40,028 nucleotides of DNA, taken from IMG/VR virus record IMGVR_UViG_3300028068_000038, positions 1-40,028 of that record, one strand, 5' to 3'. Positions 1,464 through 33,381 of the stretch are shown one piece after another (position 1 is the stretch's first letter; every line of letters begins with the position of its first letter). The notes under the pieces are model-generated. The model was not told where the DNA came from, did no database searches, and saw nothing but the letters and a program-made list of their open reading frames with translations. This DNA comes from a virus. A program made the position numbers and the translations under genes.

Positions 1464-4400
1464 TTAGCTCCCGTTGATTGTCCAGCCGCCGCCGCCTTCG
1501 CCTGTGCTGGCCCAGACAGTAACTGGGGCTGAACCGGATGCGGTTACATCCGCCACACTTGTGGCGGCGATGGTGTGCGATCCAGCCGCATTCGGTGCCG
1601 TATAAAGCCCGGCGGCGCTGATCGTGCCCACAGTTACATTGCCGCCCACGATGCCATCCACGCTCCAGGTCACGTTGGGGTTGGCGTTATTCGCCACGGT
1701 GGCGGCGAACTGCTGCGTCGTACCCGTCATGATGCTCGCGGAGGCCGGGGTCACCGTGACCAAAGTCAGCGCGGCAGTCGTGGGAGTGCAATAGATGCCA
1801 AGGACATCTGCGGTTCCAGGCCAGGTGTCGCCTGAGCCATCCTGGAAGGAGATATGGACGACATTGTCGGCATCCAGATAACACGAACCGACACCCTGCG
1901 CGTGCTGAGTGTTGGCCTCGGGCTGTCCGTTGCTCGATCCGATCAGGACTTCAAGGGTAGCTCCGTCACCCGCAGCGTCAGGCAATGCGAGCGTCGCGCC
2001 GTTCGCCATACTCTTTGCGCAGCCAGCGCCGAAGACGATGCCATTCGCAAGCGGAATCTCCATCCAGTTACCGCCGCTGAGGGCTTGCGTGGTGACGGTG
2101 CCCATGTTGTTTTTCCACGCGAAGACAAGCACCGAGGCGTTTCCGTGCCAAAGGTTGCCGCTGCCGTCGGTGATGTCAAAGTGGACGACCAGGTCCGCAT
2201 CGACATAAGCGCCCATCATATGCGCTACGTTGTTGCCGGACGTCGGCCCATCGTGCATTTCCGCGACGGCGAAGCTTTGCGCGGCTGTATAACCTGGCGG
2301 CAGAACGATAGAGGCTCCATCCGCCAGAACGCCGTTGCCGAAGAGGATGGTTTCGCCGCCGGGAAGAGTTAGCTCAAGCCAAGTGAGGCCATTGCTCGAT
2401 GTGGTTGTATCTGGGCTGAGCCAGCTCAAAGCCGCATAGTTCACGTCACCGTTCCATACGAAGCCTTCCCAGTCGGAGTAATTGAGTGTGAGAAGCCGCG
2501 TGGCACTCGCCGCGCATAACACAATTGCGCTCGCGGAATGATCGTTTCCCGGCACGTTCGCGCCCGCGGCCGAGGCCCAGGCGAGCAGGTTTGCAGCCGG
2601 GAAGCCTGACGACGGCAGTTGAAAGGGCTGGCCGCTAGGTAACTGGCCGCTGAAGAACACGAAGGTGCCACCATTCGCGAGCGGGATGCTGGTATAACTG
2701 GCATCGTTGCCGGAATCGCTGCCCGGCACGCTGGGCCAGCCAGCCTGGGTCGGGTCGCTGGTGTCGTATAGGATCGCTTCGTTATACGGTCCTAGCGTGA
2801 ACTCGATTTCGCCCGAATTCTCGTCGGGCTTGAGGGCAATTTCTCCTCCCGTGCCGGCGGCATGGCAGGTTGGCGGATAAACAGTGCGATCGAGTACTTC
2901 GTACTCGCCGGCATATTGAAAGTTTGTAGTGTCATCGAGAGTGGTGTGATCGCCCGGTTCCACAGCACAGGCCAGGTTCCCAAAGACGTCCTTTGCAAAC
3001 ATGCTGGTGCGCAGCTTGACGCTGGGCGGAGTGACATAGGGCGCCGTGGGCTGACCATCAGGGCCGGTCGGATCAATCCCCAGCAGCCGATCACGCTCGT
3101 AGCAAGTGAGGCGGCTGGCCTGATCCCAGGTCATAGTGGCGAAGTCGAGCTCCTGTTTTACCTTGTTGCGCTGCCGTGCAAGGCCAAGGCCCACGACGCC
3201 GCGGGCCAGCATATTGGCCTTGTGCCAGAACTCCGGCGCGCGTTCCTTGAAGCGCGAATAGAGCAGCCCGCATCCACCCACCGCGCCCACGCTGGCGGGA
3301 TAATTTGAGCCTTTTGGCACAAGAACAAAAGTCGTCGGATCGATCTCGGTTGATGTGCCTGGATTGATGACGTCGGGCACGCTGTAGACTTGCCACTGAC
3401 CATCGTAGGTTGTACTGGTTCCGCCGATGGCGATCCAATCCTGTGCCTCGAAGGGATGCGGCTCTTTGGTAGTAACCGTGGGCCGTACACCCGCGCCGCC
3501 GACAATCGAGGCGATCTGGCTGCATTCCGGCACCAGCAGGTCGCGGAATTTGGCGATGTAGCGATTTGCGCTTTTGTGCAGCGACTGATCGCTTGCATTC
3601 CACGAGCCGGGCAGAATATGGGCGCGGCTGAAGGTAAAAACGCTCGACCGGGGCATATCGCACTTGAGGCCGATCTTCCCGGCGTACTCGGTTGAGAAAC
3701 TGCGGCAGCAGAGCAGAATTTGCTCCAGTACGGCTTGCAGCGTGGTCTGGGTACTGAACGAATAGTTGCCCGAAAAGCGCGGCCGGCCGTTCGCGAGAAA
3801 TTCATCGAAGTATTGCGCGGCCGTGTAGATCGATCCCCAGTCAAAGCGGTTCTGCACCGCTGCGGTCAAAGCGTCCGGGCCAACGTTGAGCGTCAGGCCA
3901 TAATCGGGCATGATCTTGCGGCGCAGTAACACGTCCACGAAGTGCCAAGCAGGATTCGTTGTGAAGGCATAGCCAGTCTGATTGCCTTCGTCGTCAAAGA
4001 GGCGGCAGCGCAATGCGCGCCAGAGGCCGATGGGCGCGATGTCGGTCCACTGGCTGGGGTCGTTGCCATTGTTGCTCGTCTGATTGACCACAGGCTGTTT
4101 GCGCATCAGCGCGTAGTAGGCGATGCGCGAGTAAGCCAGCGGCTGGATCGCTGGCGGAAAGAGCGGCCACAGCAGATCGACGTTCTGATCCGGGCCGGTG
4201 GAGCTGGGCGTGAGCGATGCGCCAAGCGGAGTGTCGCAACCGGAGTGGAAATTGAAGACGAAGCCTTCAACGTTGTCGAGAGCGGCCAGCCAATTATATC
4301 CGTAGTTGCGGATGACCTTAGCCGCGGGTGCATTTCCGCCCATCCAGACCAGCAGATCGTTGATCCACAGCTCGCTGCACCCATCCCACTCGCCATGACC

Positions 4401-4571
4401 GAGCAGCCATATCCCCAGGCGGGTGTACATATTGACGGAATCTCCGGTGTTCTGGAGCATGTAGTATTCAGCGCGCTTTCCCGTCGCCCAGGCATAGCCG
4501 TAGGTCAGCGGAATCGGCTGGCCGGTGGTCTCGCTGGCGCTGCTGGTCTGGGTTGTGGCGGCGTTCGCCAT
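1464..4571 (-). CDS. Large tail tip / host-attachment protein with C-terminal Ig-like domain
   Basis: The protein has 1035 residues from ATG 4571, which overlaps the TAA of the preceding gene; GGAGG sits 8 nt upstream. A longer open frame to 4754 lacks such a site. The N-terminal 550 residues are rich in Trp and Tyr and hold the tip core; the size and the position after the distal-tail and Cys-rich hub proteins fit the gpJ/GTA tip role. The middle contains repeated beta modules of about 90 residues with shared motifs such as F-G-N-G and L-P-x-G. The last 90 residues form a bacterial Ig-like domain (VTPASASIMTGTTQQFAATV, then TWSVDG and GLYTAP). Such domains on tips are thought to bind carbohydrate surfaces. 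The tip role is well supported; subdomain functions are inferred. Confidence 0.7.
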   Translation of the reverse strand: MANAATTQTSSASETTGQPIPLTYGYAWATGKRAEYYMLQNTGDSVNMYTRLGIWLLGHGEWDGCSELWINDLLVWMGGNAPAAKVIRNYGYNWLAALDNVEGFVFNFHSGCDTPLGASLTPSSTGPDQNVDLLWPLFPPAIQPLAYSRIAYYALMRKQPVVNQTSNNGNDPSQWTDIAPIGLWRALRCRLFDDEGNQTGYAFTTNPAWHFVDVLLRRKIMPDYGLTLNVGPDALTAAVQNRFDWGSIYTAAQYFDEFLANGRPRFSGNYSFSTQTTLQAVLEQILLCCRSFSTEYAGKIGLKCDMPRSSVFTFSRAHILPGSWNASDQSLHKSANRYIAKFRDLLVPECSQIASIVGGAGVRPTVTTKEPHPFEAQDWIAIGGTSTTYDGQWQVYSVPDVINPGTSTEIDPTTFVLVPKGSNYPASVGAVGGCGLLYSRFKERAPEFWHKANMLARGVVGLGLARQRNKVKQELDFATMTWDQASRLTCYERDRLLGIDPTGPDGQPTAPYVTPPSVKLRTSMFAKDVFGNLACAVEPGDHTTLDDTTNFQYAGEYEVLDRTVYPPTCHAAGTGGEIALKPDENSGEIEFTLGPYNEAILYDTSDPTQAGWPSVPGSDSGNDASYTSIPLANGGTFVFFSGQLPSGQPFQLPSSGFPAANLLAWASAAGANVPGNDHSASAIVLCAASATRLLTLNYSDWEGFVWNGDVNYAALSWLSPDTTTSSNGLTWLELTLPGGETILFGNGVLADGASIVLPPGYTAAQSFAVAEMHDGPTSGNNVAHMMGAYVDADLVVHFDITDGSGNLWHGNASVLVFAWKNNMGTVTTQALSGGNWMEIPLANGIVFGAGCAKSMANGATLALPDAAGDGATLEVLIGSSNGQPEANTQHAQGVGSCYLDADNVVHISFQDGSGDTWPGTADVLGIYCTPTTAALTLVTVTPASASIMTGTTQQFAATVANNANPNVTWSVDGIVGGNVTVGTISAAGLYTAPNAAGSHTIAATSVADVTASGSAPVTVWASTGEGGGGWTINGS

Positions 4572-5695
4572 TAGATGGTCCTCCGCCGGTTGATCACGTT
4601 CAGCGCGGTGTTGGCAGCGGCTTCGCCGTAATTCTTCTCGTAATTGTTCATCGCTACCATGATCCGGCTGAGCGACTGGCAGCTCTGGTAGCTGTAATTG
4701 CACTCGGTGGCTTGCGTTGAACCGCAGCGCGCTCCGCCCCACTGGAGCTGGCACGTTTCGCAGTAGATTTCAAGCGGGGTATCGTCTTGCGACGGGTTGA
4801 GGAGTTGTGCGCCCTTCAAGATCGCGGTGTCCACGCCGATCGGGTCGAGGGTCAGTGTGCCATGGACCTCAAGCCATGAGTCCTGGGCGTCAGCTTGGTA
4901 GCAGCGATAGACGAACATCGCGCCCTCAAGCGTGGAGCGGCGCACGATCTTCTCGAAGTCGCGGCTGAGCGTGTCGCCGCTGAGATTCTGGATCACGAAC
5001 GCGCCCACGTCGGTCTGGAGCGAACGATGAAAGCTGAACTGCGGGACGCCGACGAGCCAGGGAAGATAAGGGCCTCCGCCGTAGGTTTCACCGGCGTAAT
5101 TTTGGCCTCCAGAATAGCTCACACCGGGCAAAGAATAGACAACACACATGTAGCCCTTCAGGTCGAAATCAATCAAGCCCGGTCCTTCGTCGGGATAATA
5201 GCCGACGTATGCGATGAAACTAAAGACTCCACTTCCATCCGATGTCGCGACAAGATTCTCTGACCAGAGGGTTCCGGAAAATGAGCCTGTCGGCTGAGTC
5301 ATTCCAGGTGCGCTGATGACGAAGCCACCGCAGCCAGTGCATGCTACCTTTCCGGTAATGACCGCATAAACAGCGGAGATCACAGCGCCTTTGGGAAGGA
5401 CGGGGGCCTCCAATGTCTCATTTTTGTTGGTCGCATAGAATTGCGATGAATTGGAAGATTTCTTTAAAGAAATAGGGCCAGTCCAAACCGCAATTCCGCC
5501 TCCTGCGCCGCTTCCCGCGCCTCGGGGAACAATAAGATCAGCCGGAGCGCTCGTGATCACGTTCGGTGCGTTGCTGGGCCGATCCGACCAGTAGTGAAGA
5601 TTGCCGTTGGTATCCTGCACGTCGAGCAGGTTCACCGGCGCGATGCCCGTGTGCGCACCGCCAACAGCCAAGAGACGCGACGAATAGTTGGTCAC
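4571..5695 (-). CDS. Tail hub protein, phage BR0599/DUF2163-like, Cys-rich C-terminus
   Basis: This 374-residue protein starts at GTG 5695, overlapping the TGA of the upstream gene (GTGA), with GGAGGTG 7 nt ahead. Near the C-terminus are six cysteines in the order CETCQLQWGGARCGS, then C-N-Y and SCQSL, the arrangement of the BR0599/DUF2163 family. That family lies between the distal-tail and tip genes in transposable siphophages and gene transfer agents. Homologues may bind an iron-sulfur cluster or zinc at the tail hub. The segment before it (GTLTLDPIGVDTAILKG) also fits the family. The upstream third is Gly- and Ser-rich and may be an insertion. Confidence 0.65.
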   Translation of the reverse strand: MTNYSSRLLAVGGAHTGIAPVNLLDVQDTNGNLHYWSDRPSNAPNVITSAPADLIVPRGAGSGAGGGIAVWTGPISLKKSSNSSQFYATNKNETLEAPVLPKGAVISAVYAVITGKVACTGCGGFVISAPGMTQPTGSFSGTLWSENLVATSDGSGVFSFIAYVGYYPDEGPGLIDFDLKGYMCVVYSLPGVSYSGGQNYAGETYGGGPYLPWLVGVPQFSFHRSLQTDVGAFVIQNLSGDTLSRDFEKIVRRSTLEGAMFVYRCYQADAQDSWLEVHGTLTLDPIGVDTAILKGAQLLNPSQDDTPLEIYCETCQLQWGGARCGSTQATECNYSYQSCQSLSRIMVAMNNYEKNYGEAAANTALNVINRRRTI

Positions 5696-6846
5696 CGCAT
5701 CACCTCCAGCGCGTACCAGCTCACCGCGATGCCACCCGGTGTGCCCGGCGTTGTGTCGGTCAGATTCGAACCCACGATGGCATCGAGAAGCGTGCCCGCA
5801 AATGTCATCGCGGTACCACCAGCGATGGTGGCCGTGATACCGTAGCCGCCCGCATTGATCGTCACCGCCAGGTTGGCGAGTGTATCCGTGCTTCCAGCCG
5901 TGCCCAGAGGCAGATTCGTAACCGTGCCTGTCGCGTTGGTGATGGCCAGCGAGCCGCCGAGCACATCTTGCGATTGAGCCACTGCAAGCGTCCCGGCCAG
6001 AGAAGCCAGAACCGGAGCCGCGTTGACGACCGGAGGAACCCGCCAGGAATAGGTACCGTCGCAGACCACCTGGACACGATGAATATCGAGCGGAAGATTC
6101 TGGTACGAGGCCACGATCTGCGGCCCTTGATCCGTGGCCGCAAAGAGGCTGAGCGTCTCCACCAGCACGCCATCAATATACAGATCCGCGTTGCCGAACT
6201 CCGGACCTTTCAGTATGTAGAGCCGGAAGCCGTAGCCGCGATATTCGTAGCAGGCCCAGTCGCCAGCCGTGCCCGCATCGTCCATCGTGGTGTAGGCCGT
6301 GCCCGCGGCGAGAGGGACGTGCTCTGTGCCCTGGCTGCCGGCGATGGCCGTGCGCGCTGTTTGTGTCCATGCGCCGCTGGTGGCCAGCTTCTGATCGCCA
6401 GAATCGTTTGCTGCGAAGAATGCAATCGCGTCACCGGCCCAGTCGCTGGGGTACACCAGCATCTGCTGCTGCGGGATCTCCTCGAAGGTCACGTTCTGTA
6501 CGTCCCACATGCCGTTGCCCGTTTCGACGGGCACAACCTCAGTGGTGAACCTGCCGACGTACTGACGGCCTCCGCCATCCCAGTCGATGATGGTAAAGAA
6601 GCCGTCTTCGTACTGCTCGCCATACCTCTTCAGCCGCTGTACGCAAGCCCAAGTGCGCGCCAACCACGAAAAATTGAAGCTATGTCCGGTGTTCTGCGTT
6701 TCTCTCGTCCAGGGTGTGCCCCCGACAGCCTTTTTGTTCAGCTTGGTACTGACCCGCTTGCGCGTGAAGCCGTAGTTGGGCGTCATCGAATCCTGGATGT
6801 CTTCTTCCCAGATCGTCGTCGGGTTAAGAATGTCGCTGGCTGGCAT
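5692..6846 (-). CDS. Distal tail protein-like
   Basis: This 384-residue product starts at ATG 6846, sharing one base with the tape-measure stop (TGATG), behind a GGAGGAGG ribosome-binding site. The first 150 residues are compact, with WTRETQNTGHSFNFSW and FTIIDWDGGGRQYVGRF, a pattern resembling DUF2460-type distal tail proteins that form the ring closing the tail tube. The remaining 230 residues are beta-rich with Ala/Thr/Gly runs and look like added surface domains. Position directly after the tape measure supports a distal-tail role. Family assignment is moderate. Confidence 0.55.
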   Translation of the reverse strand: MPASDILNPTTIWEEDIQDSMTPNYGFTRKRVSTKLNKKAVGGTPWTRETQNTGHSFNFSWLARTWACVQRLKRYGEQYEDGFFTIIDWDGGGRQYVGRFTTEVVPVETGNGMWDVQNVTFEEIPQQQMLVYPSDWAGDAIAFFAANDSGDQKLATSGAWTQTARTAIAGSQGTEHVPLAAGTAYTTMDDAGTAGDWACYEYRGYGFRLYILKGPEFGNADLYIDGVLVETLSLFAATDQGPQIVASYQNLPLDIHRVQVVCDGTYSWRVPPVVNAAPVLASLAGTLAVAQSQDVLGGSLAITNATGTVTNLPLGTAGSTDTLANLAVTINAGGYGITATIAGGTAMTFAGTLLDAIVGSNLTDTTPGTPGGIAVSWYALEVMR

Positions 6847-9800
6847 CAGAGACCTCCTCCCGAGTTCTCGGCATAGCTGTCATTCACGGCGGAGCGGATG
6901 TTGTGCTTGTACTGGTCGAGGAAGCCCGCTACGCCCTTCGCGTCAATGGCGTGGACGTGCAGATGCACATCGCCCATCGAGGCAGGCTGAACAGGCATTT
7001 GCCCGCGATTTCCCTCCGTGACGGCCTTCACGATGTCACTGTTCTGAACCCCTGAAAAGATGCGCTCACCCGCGTGGTTCAAGTTGAGGCCAGTTTCCTG
7101 CACATAGGGATTGCCGGACGCGTAAGACGCGCCGCTGGCCGTGTACATGCTGCGCCCAGCCTTTTGCTCCGCGGTAATCTTCTCCATGAACTGCAGCAGT
7201 TCGGGTTTGATCGTGTTCTGGTAATAGCGACCATCGGCTGGCCCCATTTTGGTCGTCGTTTTGGCCGCCTCCATCTGAAGACTTTGCCCGTCTGAATAAG
7301 CGCCGAGATAATCCATCGAGCCGGAATGGTAGGCTTCCAGGTCCGCCGTGATCCGCGGGCGCACGGTCTTCAGGTCGTATTTCCGCGCTTCTTGGCCGCT
7401 GCCAACGGCTCCTATGATCGCCCCGGCCGCCGCGCCGATCACCATACCCATCGGACCGCCGATCATGAGGCCGAGCTGCGCGCCGCTGGCCGCGCCTTTC
7501 AGTGCTCCGCCAGCTCCGCCGCCTCCCCGCTCCGCCGCATACAAGCCCACCACATCTTGCCCGGCGGTGATCCCTTCAGATACGTCTTGCCGCGCTCCCG
7601 AGCCTCGAGAAGTTCCGGTGCCAGAATTCTTCTGGTCGAGTGCTTGATTCGCGGTCTTATTCAGCGATTCGGCTGAATCGAGGAATCCGGCAGCGGTCGA
7701 GCCTGGCGCTTTGCTGGTGTCCGGCATATGCGTGGTTTGATCGCGGTCGGTCGCAGCGCGCGGGCCAGCGGTGGCCGCACCGCCAAAAGAGCCGGAGTCT
7801 ACGGCAGATCCCGTACCCGGCTCGGTGTCCGCCCCCGCTCCCACACCGATAGAGGAGGAGCCACGAGCGAATCCGGCGTTGGCGTCGTTCAACTGATTGC
7901 CGGTACCCGCTGTTGTCGAGCCCTGATGATGGAAGAGATGTTTTAGCAGGTAATCGCTCTGTTGCTGCTGCTGACGGGGGTGCTGGAACACGCCTTTCAT
8001 CTCTTTGGCGAGAGGGAATTCTTCATAAAGATCGTTTTCCATGCCCTTCCAGAAACCACCTTTCCCTGGAGGTGCATCGGAAGTGACCGTGCCAACAGAA
8101 GCTTTATTGCCGAGCTGATACAGGCTGGAGATCGATCCGAGATATCCGGCAGCGGTTGATCCGGGCGCTTTGCTTATGTCCGGCATATGCGTGCTTTGAT
8201 TTCGGCCATCCGCCGTGCGCATACCAGCAGTAGCTGCGCCGCCGAAGGAACCTGCATCAGCGTCGGGGGCTAAATGAACCCCGGCTTCTGCCCCGGCTCC
8301 CGAGCCCACGCCCCCAGTGGTTGAGCCTTTGGCGCTCCACGCCGGCCCTCCCACCGCAGTCGAAGTGCTGCCCGTGCCCAAGGCCGCATTGCCGGCGGCT
8401 GTGGAAGCCGTGCCCGTGCCAGTTCCTGTGCTGACACCACCCGCGCCTGAAATCGTTGCACTGCCAACATGGATGGTGGCGGAAGCGATGGAAAGCATCT
8501 TGCTCGACTCGGCGCTCATGCCGGCTGCGCCGTGCATCTTGCCGCCCTTGCCGCCGTTGAACACATCACTGAAGATGCCGCTGTCGGGCGTCCGATCCGC
8601 AGCCTTTCCGGTGCCTTGGAAGTGCTGCACTAGCGAAGCGGCCGCATTGCCCGCGGTCTTGTCGCCCAACTTTTCAAGGTATTTGAGGGGGTGATTCATG
8701 CCCTCGAAGAGCTGATCAAATTCGCCAGCCATCTTCTTGTGCGCGTCTTGATTGGCCTCCACCATCTCAGCGTTGGCTTCCGCCTGCGCAGCGGCCGCGC
8801 GGCGCGCGTATTGCACGTCTGCATCCGCCTGCCCGGCCAGTTCCTCTTTGTATCGCTGGAGCTTCTCATCGAGTTCCGCTTGAATCGATGCTGTTTTCTG
8901 CTTCTCCGCGCTCAGCGATTTCACCCGCGCCTGGGCCTCAATATGCTCGGTTTCTTCGATGGACCGCTGATGCTTTGCAGCCAGTTCGTCGGCGGCTTTC
9001 TTCCTCTCCTCGGCATCTGTTTTGTCCTGTGCATGAACTTGCTGATCGGTTTGCTGCCCGATTTCATGTTCCATGGCCAGGCGTTCGCCAGGCGCCAGAT
9101 CCGGGCTGAGGTTTTTGATGCGGTTCTCGCCTTCCTGCTTGATTCGCGCCGTTCCGGTGAGGCCCATCAATTGAGTCTCCTGGCGCATATGTTCGAGTTC
9201 CGCCTGCTGTGTGCGGAGCCGGTTCATCTCCTCGTTATGGAATTTGGTGTGGACGTCTTCAACGGCCTGGGAGCTGGAGATGCCTCTGCGCTTCAGATCC
9301 TCGATAGCGGCCGCTTCCTGCGCGTGATAGAGCGCGGAGCCGCGCAGACCGGATTCCAGCGCCTGCTCGTGGATGCGCGCCAGTTCCTGCGCCTGAGATT
9401 TTGCATCGCCTGTTCCGCCGCCTCCCGTTCCGGCGAGATCTGCGAGAGACTTGTCGGCTTTAGCGTCCGCGAGCAAGTCCTTCGTCCCCTGAGTGCTCGA
9501 AATAGGCGCTCCGGTGCCGAAAACCTCGGTCATTTGACCCTTAGAAAATAAAGCCATCCCTCGATGCGGAGTGCCGACAGAGTTTCCGTAACGCCCCTCT
9601 ACTTCGGATGTATGCCTGGAATCTTCCGCGTCGATCTCGTGCTGTTTCCGCCTTTCTTCGGTGATCTCCTTTTCCTTGCTCAGTCTCCAGTCGTAGGCGT
9701 GTTCCAGCTCGATCGTATCGAGTTTTTGTTCGTGGCGTTGCTCGATAAGGTTCTCTTTGTTCAGCTTGTCGAGTTGTTCCTGAGCCTCCATCTGTTTGAC

Positions 9801-10436
9801 TTGTGCATCGTGCGCCCACCAGGTGTCGTGGATTGATACAAGCGCGTTTCCGCCAGGTATCGCCGCAAAGAGAGGATTTGTCGCGGCGCTGGCTGCTCTT
9901 CGTTTCAGTTCTTCAACTTCGGCCTCGTATTGCTTCACTGAGGCAGTGGCCTCGTTGATGCGCAGTCTGGTCGTCTCGATTGATTGCGTGTTGCCAAAGT
10001 CATCCTGTTTTGTCTTCGCAACCTTCGCGTTGTAATCCTCTACCGCCTGATTCACATTGAGGACGTTATGCCACAGCTTCTCCGCTCCTCGAACCGCCGC
10101 CTCGAAGACCATGCCGCCGATCTGTATCGCGCCCAGGGCGATCATCGCTCCGCTGACAGCGCCGATGGCGCCCATCACCGCCGGGCACTTCGAGATCACC
10201 GACTGCATGGCGCGCGGGATGCGCACGCCGAATTCTTCAGTTAGGAGGCGCACCTTCTCGTGTGCCGAGAGCGCCCCCGCGCCCACCTGGCCCAACCCTG
10301 CGCCCACCTTTGGGCCGACGCTTGCGCCCGCCGCGCCCAGCTTGGTCAGGTTCTGCTCAACGCCCGCGAGCACCTGGCTGGAGGTGTTGTCAACGACATT
10401 GACCGAGATTTGGACGGCGGAAGTCTCTACAGCCAC
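6846..10436 (-). CDS. Tail tape measure protein
   Basis: This 1196-residue protein starts at GTG 10436 with AAGGAG 6 nt upstream. It is the longest gene in the window, as expected for the ruler that sets tail length. At the usual 1.5 A per residue it predicts a tail near 180 nm. The N-terminus carries a Gly/Ala segment and a hydrophobic stretch (AVMGAIGAVSGAMIALGAI, about 90-110). Long charged helices rich in Glu, Lys, Gln and Ala follow at 140-600. A Gly/Ser/Thr-rich middle contains two copies of one module, then a hydrophobic Gly-rich stretch (SGAQLGLMIGGPMGMVIGAA). The C-terminus ends in VHLHVHAIDAKGVAGF, a common tape-measure tail motif. Confidence 0.88.
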   Translation of the reverse strand: MAVETSAVQISVNVVDNTSSQVLAGVEQNLTKLGAAGASVGPKVGAGLGQVGAGALSAHEKVRLLTEEFGVRIPRAMQSVISKCPAVMGAIGAVSGAMIALGAIQIGGMVFEAAVRGAEKLWHNVLNVNQAVEDYNAKVAKTKQDDFGNTQSIETTRLRINEATASVKQYEAEVEELKRRAASAATNPLFAAIPGGNALVSIHDTWWAHDAQVKQMEAQEQLDKLNKENLIEQRHEQKLDTIELEHAYDWRLSKEKEITEERRKQHEIDAEDSRHTSEVEGRYGNSVGTPHRGMALFSKGQMTEVFGTGAPISSTQGTKDLLADAKADKSLADLAGTGGGGTGDAKSQAQELARIHEQALESGLRGSALYHAQEAAAIEDLKRRGISSSQAVEDVHTKFHNEEMNRLRTQQAELEHMRQETQLMGLTGTARIKQEGENRIKNLSPDLAPGERLAMEHEIGQQTDQQVHAQDKTDAEERKKAADELAAKHQRSIEETEHIEAQARVKSLSAEKQKTASIQAELDEKLQRYKEELAGQADADVQYARRAAAAQAEANAEMVEANQDAHKKMAGEFDQLFEGMNHPLKYLEKLGDKTAGNAAASLVQHFQGTGKAADRTPDSGIFSDVFNGGKGGKMHGAAGMSAESSKMLSIASATIHVGSATISGAGGVSTGTGTGTASTAAGNAALGTGSTSTAVGGPAWSAKGSTTGGVGSGAGAEAGVHLAPDADAGSFGGAATAGMRTADGRNQSTHMPDISKAPGSTAAGYLGSISSLYQLGNKASVGTVTSDAPPGKGGFWKGMENDLYEEFPLAKEMKGVFQHPRQQQQQSDYLLKHLFHHQGSTTAGTGNQLNDANAGFARGSSSIGVGAGADTEPGTGSAVDSGSFGGAATAGPRAATDRDQTTHMPDTSKAPGSTAAGFLDSAESLNKTANQALDQKNSGTGTSRGSGARQDVSEGITAGQDVVGLYAAERGGGGAGGALKGAASGAQLGLMIGGPMGMVIGAAAGAIIGAVGSGQEARKYDLKTVRPRITADLEAYHSGSMDYLGAYSDGQSLQMEAAKTTTKMGPADGRYYQNTIKPELLQFMEKITAEQKAGRSMYTASGASYASGNPYVQETGLNLNHAGERIFSGVQNSDIVKAVTEGNRGQMPVQPASMGDVHLHVHAIDAKGVAGFLDQYKHNIRSAVNDSYAENSGGGL
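7668..7860 (-). repeat. Tape-measure internal module, copy 2
   Basis: This stretch encodes the second copy of a module of about 60 residues in the tape measure. It includes GSFGGAATAG, then THMPDTSKAPGSTAAGFL. The same order recurs in copy 1 at 8130-8322 with conservative changes. The flanking residues differ, so this is a tandem-like duplication within one gene rather than a simple low-complexity run. Confidence 0.75.
8130..8322 (-). repeat. Tape-measure internal module, copy 1
   Basis: First copy of the duplicated tape-measure module, with GSFGGAATAG followed by THMPDISKAPGSTAAGYL. Together with copy 2 it makes up most of the Gly/Ser/Thr-rich centre of the protein. Confidence 0.75.
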
Positions 10437-18123: not shown

Positions 18124-18942
18124 TTACACTCCAGACAGCGTGTGGAAGCCCGGCTCGGGTACTCCCAGCCGCGCCAATAACGGCAATCTTTCCATGCCGC
18201 CTTCGTCACTTCCCTCAGGCGCATCCTCGGGAAGTATGGGGATCACCGAGCAGCGGCAGTTGAAACCGCTGGGCGGATAAATCTTGAGCCATACCGGATC
18301 GATGGCGCGCGCGCAGAAGCCGTCGAGAGACGCGTGCGCGGGTCTCACGCGCAGATCTCCGACCGTCCAGTATTGCCAGTAAGGGAGATCCTCCATCAGC
18401 CCTGGGTCTTTCATCTGCTCCAGCCGGCCTGCGCTGTAGGCTTTGCCCGCGTTGGTCTGGAAGACGGTGTCCAGTTCGAAGGCCGCCAGTTTCTCTACGC
18501 CGGCCTCAGTCGTCATTCCCTCCACAGCTTTGTGGAACTCGGCCGCCGTTCCACCCTTGGCCAGCGTCTCGGCCAGGGTGTCGCGGATCTTCGTAATCAA
18601 CCGCTGATCGCTGACCCCTGCCACCGTGATGGCATCATTGCGGTACTGGCTCGTCAGGCCGTCGAAGAGATTGCGCGTCACCGGCGTCAGGTTGCGCAGA
18701 TACTCGACAGCGCCGACCGGAGGCAGCTCGAAGCTGAAGCCGACATTCAGGGTGTCGCCCTGGGCGTCATCTTCCGCAAAGTTCTTCAGCCGCGAGTTGG
18801 TGGCCAGGCGTATGGGACGGCCCAGTTTGACCAGGCCGACCTTGGCGACGTGCAGCCGCCCCAGCAGGTTTGCCGCGGCCAGGTGTGTGGCAAGAAGATC
18901 GCCGAGGCGCACTTGCTCCGCGTTTTGAGAGTGCAGCGTCAT
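18124..18942 (-). CDS. Head morphogenesis protein, MuF/SPP1 gp7 family
   Basis: This 272-residue protein carries the MuF domain at about 67-240. A helical region leads to FQTNAGKAYSAGRLEQM, then DLPYWQYWTVGD, HASLDGF, DPVWLKIYPPSGF and CRCSVIP, with the paired Cys characteristic of the family. MuF proteins bind the portal and are packaged in small numbers into the head. ATG 18942 overlaps the portal stop (ATGA). A second, shorter MuF protein lies at 27356-27961 and aligns with the same blocks. Confidence 0.88.
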   Translation of the reverse strand: MTLHSQNAEQVRLGDLLATHLAAANLLGRLHVAKVGLVKLGRPIRLATNSRLKNFAEDDAQGDTLNVGFSFELPPVGAVEYLRNLTPVTRNLFDGLTSQYRNDAITVAGVSDQRLITKIRDTLAETLAKGGTAAEFHKAVEGMTTEAGVEKLAAFELDTVFQTNAGKAYSAGRLEQMKDPGLMEDLPYWQYWTVGDLRVRPAHASLDGFCARAIDPVWLKIYPPSGFNCRCSVIPILPEDAPEGSDEGGMERLPLLARLGVPEPGFHTLSGV

Positions 18943-27355: not shown

Positions 27356-27961
27356 TTAAAGCAACTTGAGAATATGATCTGGGCGCGTCTGCAACCAATT
27401 TCGGCACTGCGAGCGTAGAGCCTCGGATACGGGGCGTCCAATCGGTTTACGTGGAGGAACGTCGAAATCCATGATGGGCAAAACCGAGCATCCACACATC
27501 CAGCCGTTTGGTGGAAAGATGTCTTCCCAAATTGGGTCATCAGGGCGAGCGATATATTGATCAAGTGAAGAATGCTTCTTGCAGTATCGGGACATACAGT
27601 CAAGCTGCCAATAAGGAAAATCCTCGTTCGATGACTCTCTGATCTGGTTATATCGATGATACGCGTAGATGTCCAAAACGACGCTAGTGAAGAGGATCTC
27701 TGGCCATTTTCTGGAATCGGAGTGTGGCAGTGCGAATTCATGCCAAGCGGACACGCAATATGGCGCTTCGTCCGAACCGCACCAACGCCTGAAATCTCGT
27801 TCCGTTTCACCCCTTTTAGCGCTTTCAAGGATGCGCTGAGCAATTATCGGAACTGCATCGGCGCGATAAATTCCATCCCAACGGAGGACTTGTTCCACCA
27901 TCGACACTGCGTGCTGCCCCATGTCATAGTTGGTTTTTAAGTTGAAACTAAATCCTGCCAT
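27356..27961 (-). CDS. Second MuF-domain protein, in the repressor operon
   Basis: This 201-residue protein starts at ATG 27961 (GTGAGA 6 nt upstream; GTG 27964 possible). Residues 91-165 match the head MuF protein block by block: EDFPYWQL, HSSLDQYIAR, DPIWEDIFPPNGW and CGCSVLPI. Even the opening AGFSFNL resembles VGFSFEL of the head protein. The region before the MuF domain (first 66 residues of the head protein) is absent. It is not in the head cluster but third in the repressor transcript, so it may be expressed in lysogens. Superinfection control or interference with incoming phage heads is an idea, not shown. No toxin domain is attached. Confidence 0.75.
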   Translation of the reverse strand: MAGFSFNLKTNYDMGQHAVSMVEQVLRWDGIYRADAVPIIAQRILESAKRGETERDFRRWCGSDEAPYCVSAWHEFALPHSDSRKWPEILFTSVVLDIYAYHRYNQIRESSNEDFPYWQLDCMSRYCKKHSSLDQYIARPDDPIWEDIFPPNGWMCGCSVLPIMDFDVPPRKPIGRPVSEALRSQCRNWLQTRPDHILKLL

Positions 27962-27968
27962 CACGTTC

Positions 27969-30129: not shown

Positions 30130-31970
30130 GCGCACAGCTCGCGTTGACCCTCCCCCTTCCGATGCCCGTTGCATCCCCGCAGCGCGTGCTGCTTCCTGAT
30201 CCAGACGATCAGGCTCAAGCCGAATCCCGCCTCGCCACACTGCAGATGCTCTTCGATTACCGGCGCGATCCCGCTCGATTCGGCAGGCTATGCCTCAACG
30301 ATGGCACGCCGGTGACCAGCTCCAGCCGCATGGTTGCCTACATGGCTGAGTCAGCGGGCGTGAGCGAAGGCACGATCTGGCTCTGGTTGCGTCGCTTTCA
30401 GCACGGCGGCCTCGCGGAGCTGGCTGACCACAAACGCAAAGACAAGAATCAGTCGCGCTTCTTCGCAGCCTATCCCAAGGCCGCCTGGCTCGCAGCCTAC
30501 CTCTTCCTCACTTGCAAACAGAGTTGCATGGTGGCCTACGAGGCCATCGTCCGCGACCCGGCGATGGTCGAAGTTCCGCCCGAGGATCTGCCCAGCTACG
30601 AGACGGTGAGACGCTGGCTTGCCTCAATGCCGCCCTCACTCACTGTCTACGCGCGGAACGGCCGCAAGGCCTACCAGGAGCGCATGAGTCCCTATCTCAC
30701 GCGCGGCTTCACGGATGTCTATTCCAACGCCGTCTGGGTGGGCGACCACATGATCCACGATGTGGAGTGCTTCAACGATACGTTTGGAAACGTGGAGTGG
30801 GGCGCGCCGATCCGCATCCGGCTTACCGGATGGCTGGACTATCGCTCGCGGATGCCCATGGGCGCGAGCTGGTGCTGGGAAGGCAGCTCGCGTTCAATCG
30901 CCGCGGCTCTGCGGCGCGGCGTCACCACATACGGCCCTCCCGAGTGCGTCTACGTTGACAACGGTAAAGACTACCGCAAAGTGGGCAAGGGCGCGCTTCC
31001 CGGCTACATGATGGAGTCGCCTCTGGCGCCAAAGAATTGGTGGAAGTCTGAGATAGATTCCATCGCCGCCACCGGCTTTCTGGCGCGTCTCGGCATCGCA
31101 CTCACTCACTGCGCGCCTTATCACGGGCAAGCAAAGCACATCGAGCGATTCTGGGGATCGGTCCACGAACACTTCGATAAATGCTTTCCGACATACACCA
31201 GCGGCAACCCTTTCACGCGCCCCGATGCCACCTCCGCAGCCATGATGGAGCACCGCAAGCTGGCGCGCCATGGTCATGTCGCTGACTCGAACCATCCGAA
31301 GGCCAGCCTCTTCATTGCCGCCTGTCTGGCGTGGATGGAGGAATATGCTGACACGCCGCACACGGGCGAAGGAATGGACGGTGGCACCCCGCGCCAGGTC
31401 TTCGAGGCCAATCTTAATCCCCGGCAAAAACCTACGCCGGATGCGGCCACGCTCGCACTGCTGATGGCCGAGCACGAAAAGCGCCTGGTGCAGGAGTGCG
31501 CAATCCACCTGAATAAGCGCCGGTACACGCCCATCGACCAGCCTGGTTGGATCGCTCTCCACAATCTCAATTCGTGCGAAGTGCTGATCGCCTATGAACC
31601 AGGCGCGCCGGAAGACGCGGCCGCTTTGGATCTGGATGGAAACTTTATCTGCGCTCTGCGGACTGAGGAACTCGTCAGGTTCGCACCTGGTGATCCGCAC
31701 ACCAAATCCCTGGTGCAAGAAAGTATGCGCCAGCGCCGGCACCTCGAAAAGCAAACGCGCGAGGCGCTGCAAACCATCTCCCTCGTCGCCCGCCAGAACG
31801 GCGCTCAGTCGCCGCTGGAAGCCATGGCCAGCAGGCTGCAACTGCCCGCCGATACCAACATCTCCGACCTCGTTACGCAGCGCAAACCACGCTTCGGACC
31901 GGACAAACAGGCCGTCGCGCCCAAAAGCGCCTCGGAAATAGCCAGCAGTTTTTTGGAGGAACTCAAATGA
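30126..31970 (+). CDS. Transposase, MuA-like DDE
   Basis: ATG 30126 overlaps the preceding stop (ATGA), with AAGGAAA upstream; the open frame from 29967 is not used. The 614 residues include an N-terminal HTH (YMAESAGVSEGTIWLWLRRF at about 72-91) and an integrase-type core with D207 (VWVGDHMIHD), D278 (VYVDNGKDYR) and E340 (AKHIERFWGS). The rest is a Mu-type C-terminal domain (LNKRRYTPID region near 465) and a helical tail for MuB contact. It cuts and joins phage ends to target DNA during replicative transposition. MuA has 663 residues; this is slightly shorter. Confidence 0.93.
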   Translation: MSAQLALTLPLPMPVASPQRVLLPDPDDQAQAESRLATLQMLFDYRRDPARFGRLCLNDGTPVTSSSRMVAYMAESAGVSEGTIWLWLRRFQHGGLAELADHKRKDKNQSRFFAAYPKAAWLAAYLFLTCKQSCMVAYEAIVRDPAMVEVPPEDLPSYETVRRWLASMPPSLTVYARNGRKAYQERMSPYLTRGFTDVYSNAVWVGDHMIHDVECFNDTFGNVEWGAPIRIRLTGWLDYRSRMPMGASWCWEGSSRSIAAALRRGVTTYGPPECVYVDNGKDYRKVGKGALPGYMMESPLAPKNWWKSEIDSIAATGFLARLGIALTHCAPYHGQAKHIERFWGSVHEHFDKCFPTYTSGNPFTRPDATSAAMMEHRKLARHGHVADSNHPKASLFIAACLAWMEEYADTPHTGEGMDGGTPRQVFEANLNPRQKPTPDAATLALLMAEHEKRLVQECAIHLNKRRYTPIDQPGWIALHNLNSCEVLIAYEPGAPEDAAALDLDGNFICALRTEELVRFAPGDPHTKSLVQESMRQRRHLEKQTREALQTISLVARQNGAQSPLEAMASRLQLPADTNISDLVTQRKPRFGPDKQAVAPKSASEIASSFLEELK

Positions 31971-32995
31971 ACGGAAAGGCAAGCAGAAAGATGGCACTCG
32001 AAGACGAACGGGAATTTGATACCGCCGCCCGCCTACGCATCCACGATTATCTTGCGCGCACCGGGCTCTCGCAGCCCGACTTCGCGCGCCGGATCAATTA
32101 CTCGTACGACACGCTGCGGCTGTTTCTCACGGATCGCTATTACCGGATCGGCGCATCGGCGCGCAACGTGATCGCAGCCGCCGACGGCTATATGCAGGAG
32201 CATCCCATCGGCACCAGCGCGCGCATCCTGGGCGAACTCTACGACACCAGGAACGTGCAGATCATTCGCGACACCATCGAGCAGCTCCTGCGCCGGCCCG
32301 TTGCCTACATGCTCTACGGCGCGCCGGGAAATCAGAAGTCATTCGCTCTGGAACATGAGGTTGCGCAACTGAACCTGCGCGAGCTGGCCGCAAGCGACAA
32401 GGGTCGCCAGGCCTTTTATGTCTACGTGCGGAAAAATATCCGCCCACGGGACATCATCCGCCGCATCGCGGTCGAGTGCGGATGCCGAGTCAACGCACAG
32501 ATTGAATCGATGATTTCAGAGCTGCGCTTCCGTTTCGACGGCCGCCGCGTGGTGTTGATCTTCGACGAGGCGCAGCGGCTCTCGATCGAATGCCTGGAAA
32601 CCATTCAGGAATTGCTTGATCGGCCGCCGTATTTTTCAATCCTCCTCGCGGGCTCGCAGGATCTGAAGACGAAGCTGGATGAATTCTCCGCGACGCTGGA
32701 GCAGTGGAACAGCCGCATCATTGCCAGGGTGCTGCTGCCCGGACTCGAAAAGCAAGAAGCCCGCGGCATCATCGAGCGCGAGATCGGGATGTTATTGCTC
32801 CAGCGCACTTCCGACGATGCCAACCATCTCATTGACAAGCTCATCGCGGGGGCAACCGTGCCGGATGCCTTTAACGGAAACCGGACCTACATCAACATCC
32901 GCACCTTGACCAACGCGCTCGATCAGATTAAGGCCACGGCTCCTCCTCCGACTGATCCCGAACCGGCCGGCGAGAAAGTTGAGGCGATCTCATGA
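31967..32995 (+). CDS. MuB-like AAA ATPase, transposition target factor
   Basis: This 342-residue protein starts at ATG 31967 (ATGA). The N-terminal 60 residues are a helix-turn-helix (IHDYLARTGLSQPDFARRIN). The AAA domain shows YGAPGNQKSF at 117-126, a Walker A with N-Q before K-S, Walker B VVLIFDEAQ at 195-203, and ILLAGSQDL near 225. MuB-type proteins bind DNA as filaments and direct the transposase to targets away from the phage. The layout matches MuB and IS21 IstB/TniB relatives. Confidence 0.9.
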   Translation: MNGKASRKMALEDEREFDTAARLRIHDYLARTGLSQPDFARRINYSYDTLRLFLTDRYYRIGASARNVIAAADGYMQEHPIGTSARILGELYDTRNVQIIRDTIEQLLRRPVAYMLYGAPGNQKSFALEHEVAQLNLRELAASDKGRQAFYVYVRKNIRPRDIIRRIAVECGCRVNAQIESMISELRFRFDGRRVVLIFDEAQRLSIECLETIQELLDRPPYFSILLAGSQDLKTKLDEFSATLEQWNSRIIARVLLPGLEKQEARGIIEREIGMLLLQRTSDDANHLIDKLIAGATVPDAFNGNRTYINIRTLTNALDQIKATAPPPTDPEPAGEKVEAIS

Positions 32996-33381
32996 TTGAG
33001 GTGCATATCCACGTATCCGATATAGACAGAGAGTCGATGAACCGCTTTATGCGTGAGAATTCCGGAGCCATCCGAAGGGCCGTGAATGCTCACTTTCAGC
33101 AGAACTTCGACTCTAAGTTTCATTTTGTCGCCGACGAACCTCCATCTACTTTTAGCTCTTCCATGCGCCAGAAGTTTCGGACGCTCTTGCACCGCCGCTG
33201 GACCCCTACTGACGCCCAATTGCGCCGCATCACCGAGCTGATCTTCCGCTCGGAATCTGTCTGTGATCTCTGCCTAAAAGTTGTGACCATCGCCATCGCA
33301 ATCTATCTCGCCGTTGAGATTGGTGCGGCTTTCCTGCCCGGTGGCGCCGTCGAGCGGGTACTCGGAGGAGGAGCAAAATGA
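32992..33381 (+). CDS. Early membrane protein with tape-measure-like N-terminal motif
   Basis: This 129-residue product begins MIEVHIHVSDIDRESMNRFM, then I-R-R-A-V-N. The first 37 residues align without gaps to the C-terminal end of the tape measure (13 of 37 identical, including V-H-x-H-V, I-D, F and I-R-x-A-V-N). A membrane helix follows near 98-115 (VVTIAIAIYLAVEIGAAF). The remaining part is basic. It overlaps MuB and the next gene by 4 nt. It could compete with or bind tail proteins, for example in exclusion; nothing proves that. Confidence 0.65.
   Translation: MIEVHIHVSDIDRESMNRFMRENSGAIRRAVNAHFQQNFDSKFHFVADEPPSTFSSSMRQKFRTLLHRRWTPTDAQLRRITELIFRSESVCDLCLKVVTIAIAIYLAVEIGAAFLPGGAVERVLGGGAK

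Follow-up and report, generated by a model that had tools for sequence, protein, structure and literature searches.

A small membrane protein gene next to MuB

Why should a small phage membrane protein, encoded beside the transposition genes, begin like the end of a tail tape measure protein (TMP)? The question is raised by a 40-kb virus record, analysed over its whole length of 40,028 nucleotides and called the window below. Its early region is Mu-like, with a transposase (PHROG 310) and a MuB protein (PHROG 296), and its siphophage tail region lies on the opposite strand. Prophages related to the window are located in Acidobacteriaceae MAGs. The genes and segments concerned are the following.

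6846..10436, − strand: tail tape measure protein (TMP), 1196 aa, GTG start; PHROG 339 tail length tape measure protein, E 2e-6
6864..6977, − strand: TMP C-terminal motif, aa 1154-1191; from BLASTP against P0001, conserved in related TMPs
31967..32995, + strand: MuB-like transposition ATPase, 5′ neighbour of P0001; PHROG 296 DNA transposition protein, E 5e-19; Pfam AAA_22, E 4e-12
32992..33381, + strand: early membrane protein P0001, 129 aa; open reading frame whose homologues are likewise placed after MuB
32992..33105, + strand: TMP-C-terminus-like module, aa 1-38 of P0001, strand-like VHIHV followed by two helices; BLASTP, HMM, hhalign and shuffles

The P0001 gene directly follows MuB, as the initial annotation had reported: its ATG overlaps the MuB stop codon (ATGA), an arrangement also found in most of its post-MuB homologues. 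In Mu, host-takeover genes are carried right after MuB. P0001 is probably made early in infection by this soil phage and, because its gene is coupled to MuB, would probably be silent in a repressed prophage. A promoter scan, which perhaps did not cover the promoters of the host, saw no sigma-70-like site on the + strand near the gene. No family of Pfam, PHROG, NCBIfam or PADLOC covers P0001.

Three other features of the − strand were recorded in passing. A large tail-region protein (1464-4754) has a bacterial Ig-like stretch (Big_2) near its C-terminus, at an E-value of 8e-4, a match that falls short of Pfam's cut-off. A second stretch conserved among related TMPs, TGxxxxHxGERIxxSDQNERIT, lies upstream of the TMP motif (6849-7148). 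Finally, an ORF at 27356-27964 has a MuF-like C-terminal pattern (DDPIWEDIFPPNGWMCGCSVLPI), like that of the ORF at 18124-18942 (DPVWLKIYPPSGFNCRCSVIPI), and, located away from the head genes, may be a second copy of minor-head type.

The P0001 N-terminus resembles the C-terminus of tape measure proteins

By BLASTP, residues 1-38 of P0001 aligned without gaps to residues 1154-1191 of the TMP, with 14 identities out of 38 (30 bits, E 3e-5 for the pair); the 13 identities over 37 residues reported initially come from the same alignment, with the start methionine omitted. By itself the pair would be only suggestive, with an E-value estimated at about 0.01 over all protein pairs of a 40-kb phage. 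An HMM was made from TMPs only, using 10 related TMP C-termini taken from related records, the window TMP being excluded. Against all ORFs of the window, it scored P0001 at 25.2 bits (E 4.6e-7) and the next ORF at 5.3 bits; the window TMP aside, P0001 was the only ORF that it picked.

Profile-profile comparison of the two segments, for which the lack of a significant score had been named beforehand as refuting, gave a significant one: with hhalign, the module of P0001 and a second early module (described below), compared with 21 TMP C-termini, reached a probability of 97.1 (E 7.5e-11). The best of 300 column-shuffled decoys scored 19 in hhalign, versus 54 for the true comparison. When the residues of the P0001 segment were shuffled, 0 of 100,000 shuffles reached 28.2 bits, the best one being at 15.3. 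Both early proteins retain two polar residues of the TMP motif: R28, which 94% of 18 related TMPs have, and N32, which all of them have (100%). A profile of the whole early family did not match the TMP profile (probability 0.3), because the unrelated N-termini of the other members, which are without the module, dilute it. Among cultured phages, tblastn with both window segments gave chance-level matches only, and a TMP segment from a related locus, L082, weakly matched the C-terminus of T5-like Klebsiella TMPs (tblastn, E 0.06).

Structure prediction agreed with the alignment. AlphaFold2 was run separately for the early family and for the TMP end, without cross-rows between the families, and placed a helix-break-helix at the same aligned residues, 13-22/24-42 in P0001 and 70-79/81-95 in the TMP end, the TMP model being of low confidence. 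A differing fold for the two segments, which the initial annotation had set against its own proposal, was thus not seen.

33028..33057, + strand: predicted helix 1 of the module, aa 13-22; AlphaFold2, block mean pLDDT above 90; the aligned TMP residues are helix 70-79
33061..33117, + strand: predicted helix 2 of the module, aa 24-42; AlphaFold2; the aligned TMP residues are helix 81-95 in the TMP model

A second fusion

The TMP-only profile was also run over 18,111 ORFs of related loci, where two non-TMP ORFs exceeded the threshold: P0001 and the post-MuB gene of L046, which belongs to an Acidobacteriaceae MAG and whose MuB is 38% identical to that of the window. The L046 protein (155 aa) consists of a leader of about 28 residues (SIHVHTVNAPSMSQFLERYRDEIRLTLN), the module and the same membrane anchor. 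It was found through the TMP-only profile and not through likeness to the P0001 N-terminus, and it has kept a charge pattern (QFLERYRDEIR vs QFLDKYKHNIR in TMP). No third fusion was found with the TMP/early module profile, either in viral scans or in two overlapping draws of about 400 Acidobacteria genomes.

A chance or convergent likeness between short strand-helix segments would fit the small size of the match (only about 38 residues), its HMM support of some 25 bits and the lack of a match for the whole-family profile. The HMM, hhalign and shuffle statistics, the independent case of L046 and the identical predicted helix break all argue against it, and we consider it very improbable. As judged from these comparisons, the first 38 or so residues of P0001 are, with high confidence, a homologue of the C-terminal plug of siphophage TMPs. 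A fusion of the same kind is also present in another, distantly related phage, which suggests that this part of the tail has been put to a further use by phages, perhaps that of a decoy.

Origin of the module

P0001 and L046 share only 10 of 36 module positions, compared to 18/36 between P0001 and the TMP of L082 (the median between TMPs being 17/36) and 12/36 between L046 and L034. Both early modules are therefore nearer to TMPs, each of a different subclade, than to one another, and 0% of the bootstrap trees unite them, in a module tree whose 36 columns give little resolution. This suggests separate captures from different TMP lineages, which would be likelier than one old event. The domain shuffle itself is well supported by the profile scores; that it was an ancient one, as first proposed, holds in part only, the two modules resembling different TMP subclades.

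A recent copy of the window's own TMP was ruled out, with 59/114 nucleotides and 18/38 third positions identical. The low G+C of the module (0.46) was considered as a sign of fresh import and discarded, other N-termini of the family being also lower in G+C.

A constant membrane anchor with exchangeable N-termini

The remainder of P0001 comprises three parts.

33157..33276, + strand: linker with a basic helical region (RRWTPTDAQLRRI), aa 56-95; family alignment and helix model, common to most members
33280..33336, + strand: single transmembrane helix, aa 97-115; from hydropathy (peak value 2.32 at aa 97) and model helix 74-114
33328..33378, + strand: conserved C-terminal tail AFLPGGAVERVLGGGAK, aa 113-129; most conserved part of a 22-member alignment

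The membrane helix noted initially was recovered as one transmembrane helix, at the hydropathy maximum of 2.32 at residue 97. The AlphaFold2 model of P0001 (pTM 0.37) consists of a single long helix and a short domain, and Foldseek with this model returned 0 PDB matches and no significant viral match. Family-wide, basic residues number about 4.1 in the 25 positions before the transmembrane helix versus 1.8 after it, where the tail is short. This charge distribution weakly suggests an N-in topology, in which the module would be cytoplasmic rather than located at a docking site in the periplasm.

Among about 30 post-MuB genes compared, most share the C-terminal anchor, made of one transmembrane helix followed by AFLPGGAVERVLGG, and only two carry the TMP-like module. 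Other N-termini are a PxxLRRLLD helix and a hairpin, GRxTxTVRGSHVxIxV; in L124 and L126 the N-terminal part is near-absent. A REYPL module is common to L003 and L010, on otherwise different anchors. When the N-terminal parts of the members were used as single-sequence queries, only those of P0001 and L046 had matches outside the family, all of them to TMPs. From these alignments, the post-MuB protein is modular, its C-terminal membrane anchor being constant and its N-terminal modules swappable. Such a locus would be of interest even if the mimicry proposed below is wrong.

Genes of this modular kind were listed at 32992-33381 of the window and in L003, L009-L015, L046, L048-L050, L054, L060, L061 and L122. 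Cys-pair, zinc-ribbon-like N-terminal stretches are present in L054 (11154-11876) and L122 (3812-4210), and the L054 protein also has a duplicated segment (SAEALPNEADYTQRAIR). The prophage of L082 and L109 (genome G411, contig C93) has the TMP end nearest to the P0001 module and a post-MuB-type gene without the module.

What the module may do

The place of the TMP C-terminus in the virion is known from several phages. The final 33 residues of the TMP of the Mu-like siphophage JBD30 assemble as a trimeric coiled coil within the baseplate core, and T5 and 80alpha share this fold (PMC11445458). In T5 the trimer is made of the last 35 residues; it is in contact with the hub plug and is expelled to the periplasm as the hub opens (PMC10038345). 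The coiled coil of DT57C, residues 1192-1227, remains in the tip (PMC10713586); our profile weakly matched residues 1185-1218 of that TMP (E 0.36), overlapping the resolved structure. The motif had initially been thought to sit where the tail tip contacts the host membrane, but the JBD30, T5 and DT57C structures place it inside the baseplate hub.

The explanation that we favour, tentatively and at somewhat less than even odds, is mimicry of the TMP plug. The course of events that we infer for P0001, with early expression, trimerisation and cytoplasmic display, would be as follows. Early in infection, ahead of the synthesis of the phage's own TMP, the anchor would display a copy of the plug on the inner membrane, probably on the cytoplasmic side, and the displayed module would bind the usual partners of the TMP C-terminus. 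By binding the hub or the TMP molecules of competing phages, it may render their tails defective, or it may soak up TMP-recognising defence proteins of the host or of a prophage (Tab-like or SNIPE-like). We favour mimicry because R28, N32 and the pre-helix segment are kept besides the hydrophobic positions, and because phages are known to be open to attack at the C-terminal region of the TMP, through which Tab acts in Mu-like phages, SNIPE being a binder of TMPs. Against it, just two of the about 30 family members carry the module, and the topology is weakly indicated as N-in. Furthermore, since the module would also meet the phage's own TMP, timing or affinity would have to prevent self-harm. 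The broader proposal, that transposable phages of Acidobacteriaceae repeatedly capture the TMP plug and turn it, fixed to an early membrane anchor, into a decoy against TMP-recognising defences or competitors' tails, is conceivable but rather unlikely.

Almost as probable as mimicry is a module that serves for trimerisation only. The captured parallel trimeric coiled coil would simply trimerise the anchor, the membrane part would be the one that acts, and the module would have no TMP-related role. This fits the trimeric coiled coils formed by the TMP C-terminus in JBD30, T5 and DT57C, as well as the constancy of the anchor beneath exchangeable N-termini. However, R28, N32 and the pre-helix HxHV segment, all kept, would not be needed for a coiled coil as such, and a coiled coil is not evident in the N-termini of the remaining members.

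The exclusion of incoming tails, in which the module would occupy the membrane docking site of the ejected TMP, was the idea first put forward for this locus, and it has a precedent in HK97 gp15, a small membrane protein described, in papers that cite it, as blocking injection through a TMP-related step. We find it improbable: given the weak N-in charge bias, the module would face the cytoplasm, and in the structures the segment lies within the hub of the tail rather than at a site of the host, both of which make tail blocking from the membrane less likely; moreover, the gene is tied to MuB, and the scan saw no promoter-like site on the + strand before it. Still less probable is a helper of the phage's own tail assembly, an anchored module that would retain proteins of the hub or baseplate at the membrane and later hand them over to TMP: the TMP C-terminus does anchor in the preassembled baseplate as tail assembly starts (PMC11445458), but the gene lies beside MuB, outside the tail operon, and the module is missing from almost every relative whose TMP is of this kind.

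If mimicry is true, P0001 would be a decoy of a tail part held within a module of 40 residues. The TMP C-terminus has become a focus of phage defence, with Tab acting through it, SNIPE binding TMPs and injection depending on TMPs. No report of a non-virion phage protein carrying a TMP C-terminal domain was found in the literature and collections searched.

Comparison with known systems

Three known proteins invite comparison with P0001. Tab is a tail assembly blocker from the Mu-like phage JBD26, and its action is exerted through the C-terminal region of the TMP (PMC10884400). Like P0001, it is a non-virion protein of a Mu-like siphophage lineage tied to that region, but Tab is expressed by the prophage and targets TMP, whereas P0001 resembles TMP and is coupled to MuB. 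With P0001 as the query, tblastn against the whole cultured-phage collection gave no JBD26 match, and no full-length match at E<=10.

HK97 gp15, which blocks injection as cited in PMC10884400 and PMC13190303, is like P0001 a small phage membrane protein and holds the same conceptual place, between membrane and TMP. No likeness of P0001 to gp15 or to another listed family was found by cultured-phage tblastn or in Pfam, NCBIfam and PADLOC. HK97 gp15 is a moron expressed by the prophage, whereas P0001 is not known as such. SNIPE, a membrane nuclease that binds TMPs (PMC13190303), is likewise a membrane protein connected with TMPs, but has DUF4041 and a nuclease domain, neither of which Pfam finds in P0001.

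The closest counterpart is the plug of the siphophage TMPs themselves (JBD30 gp46, T5 pb2C, DT57C and 80alpha), to which P0001 is related by the profile match and by the aligned, predicted helix-break-helix. There the plug is the end of a long tail protein, whereas in P0001 the module forms the N-terminus of a 129-residue membrane protein encoded beside MuB.
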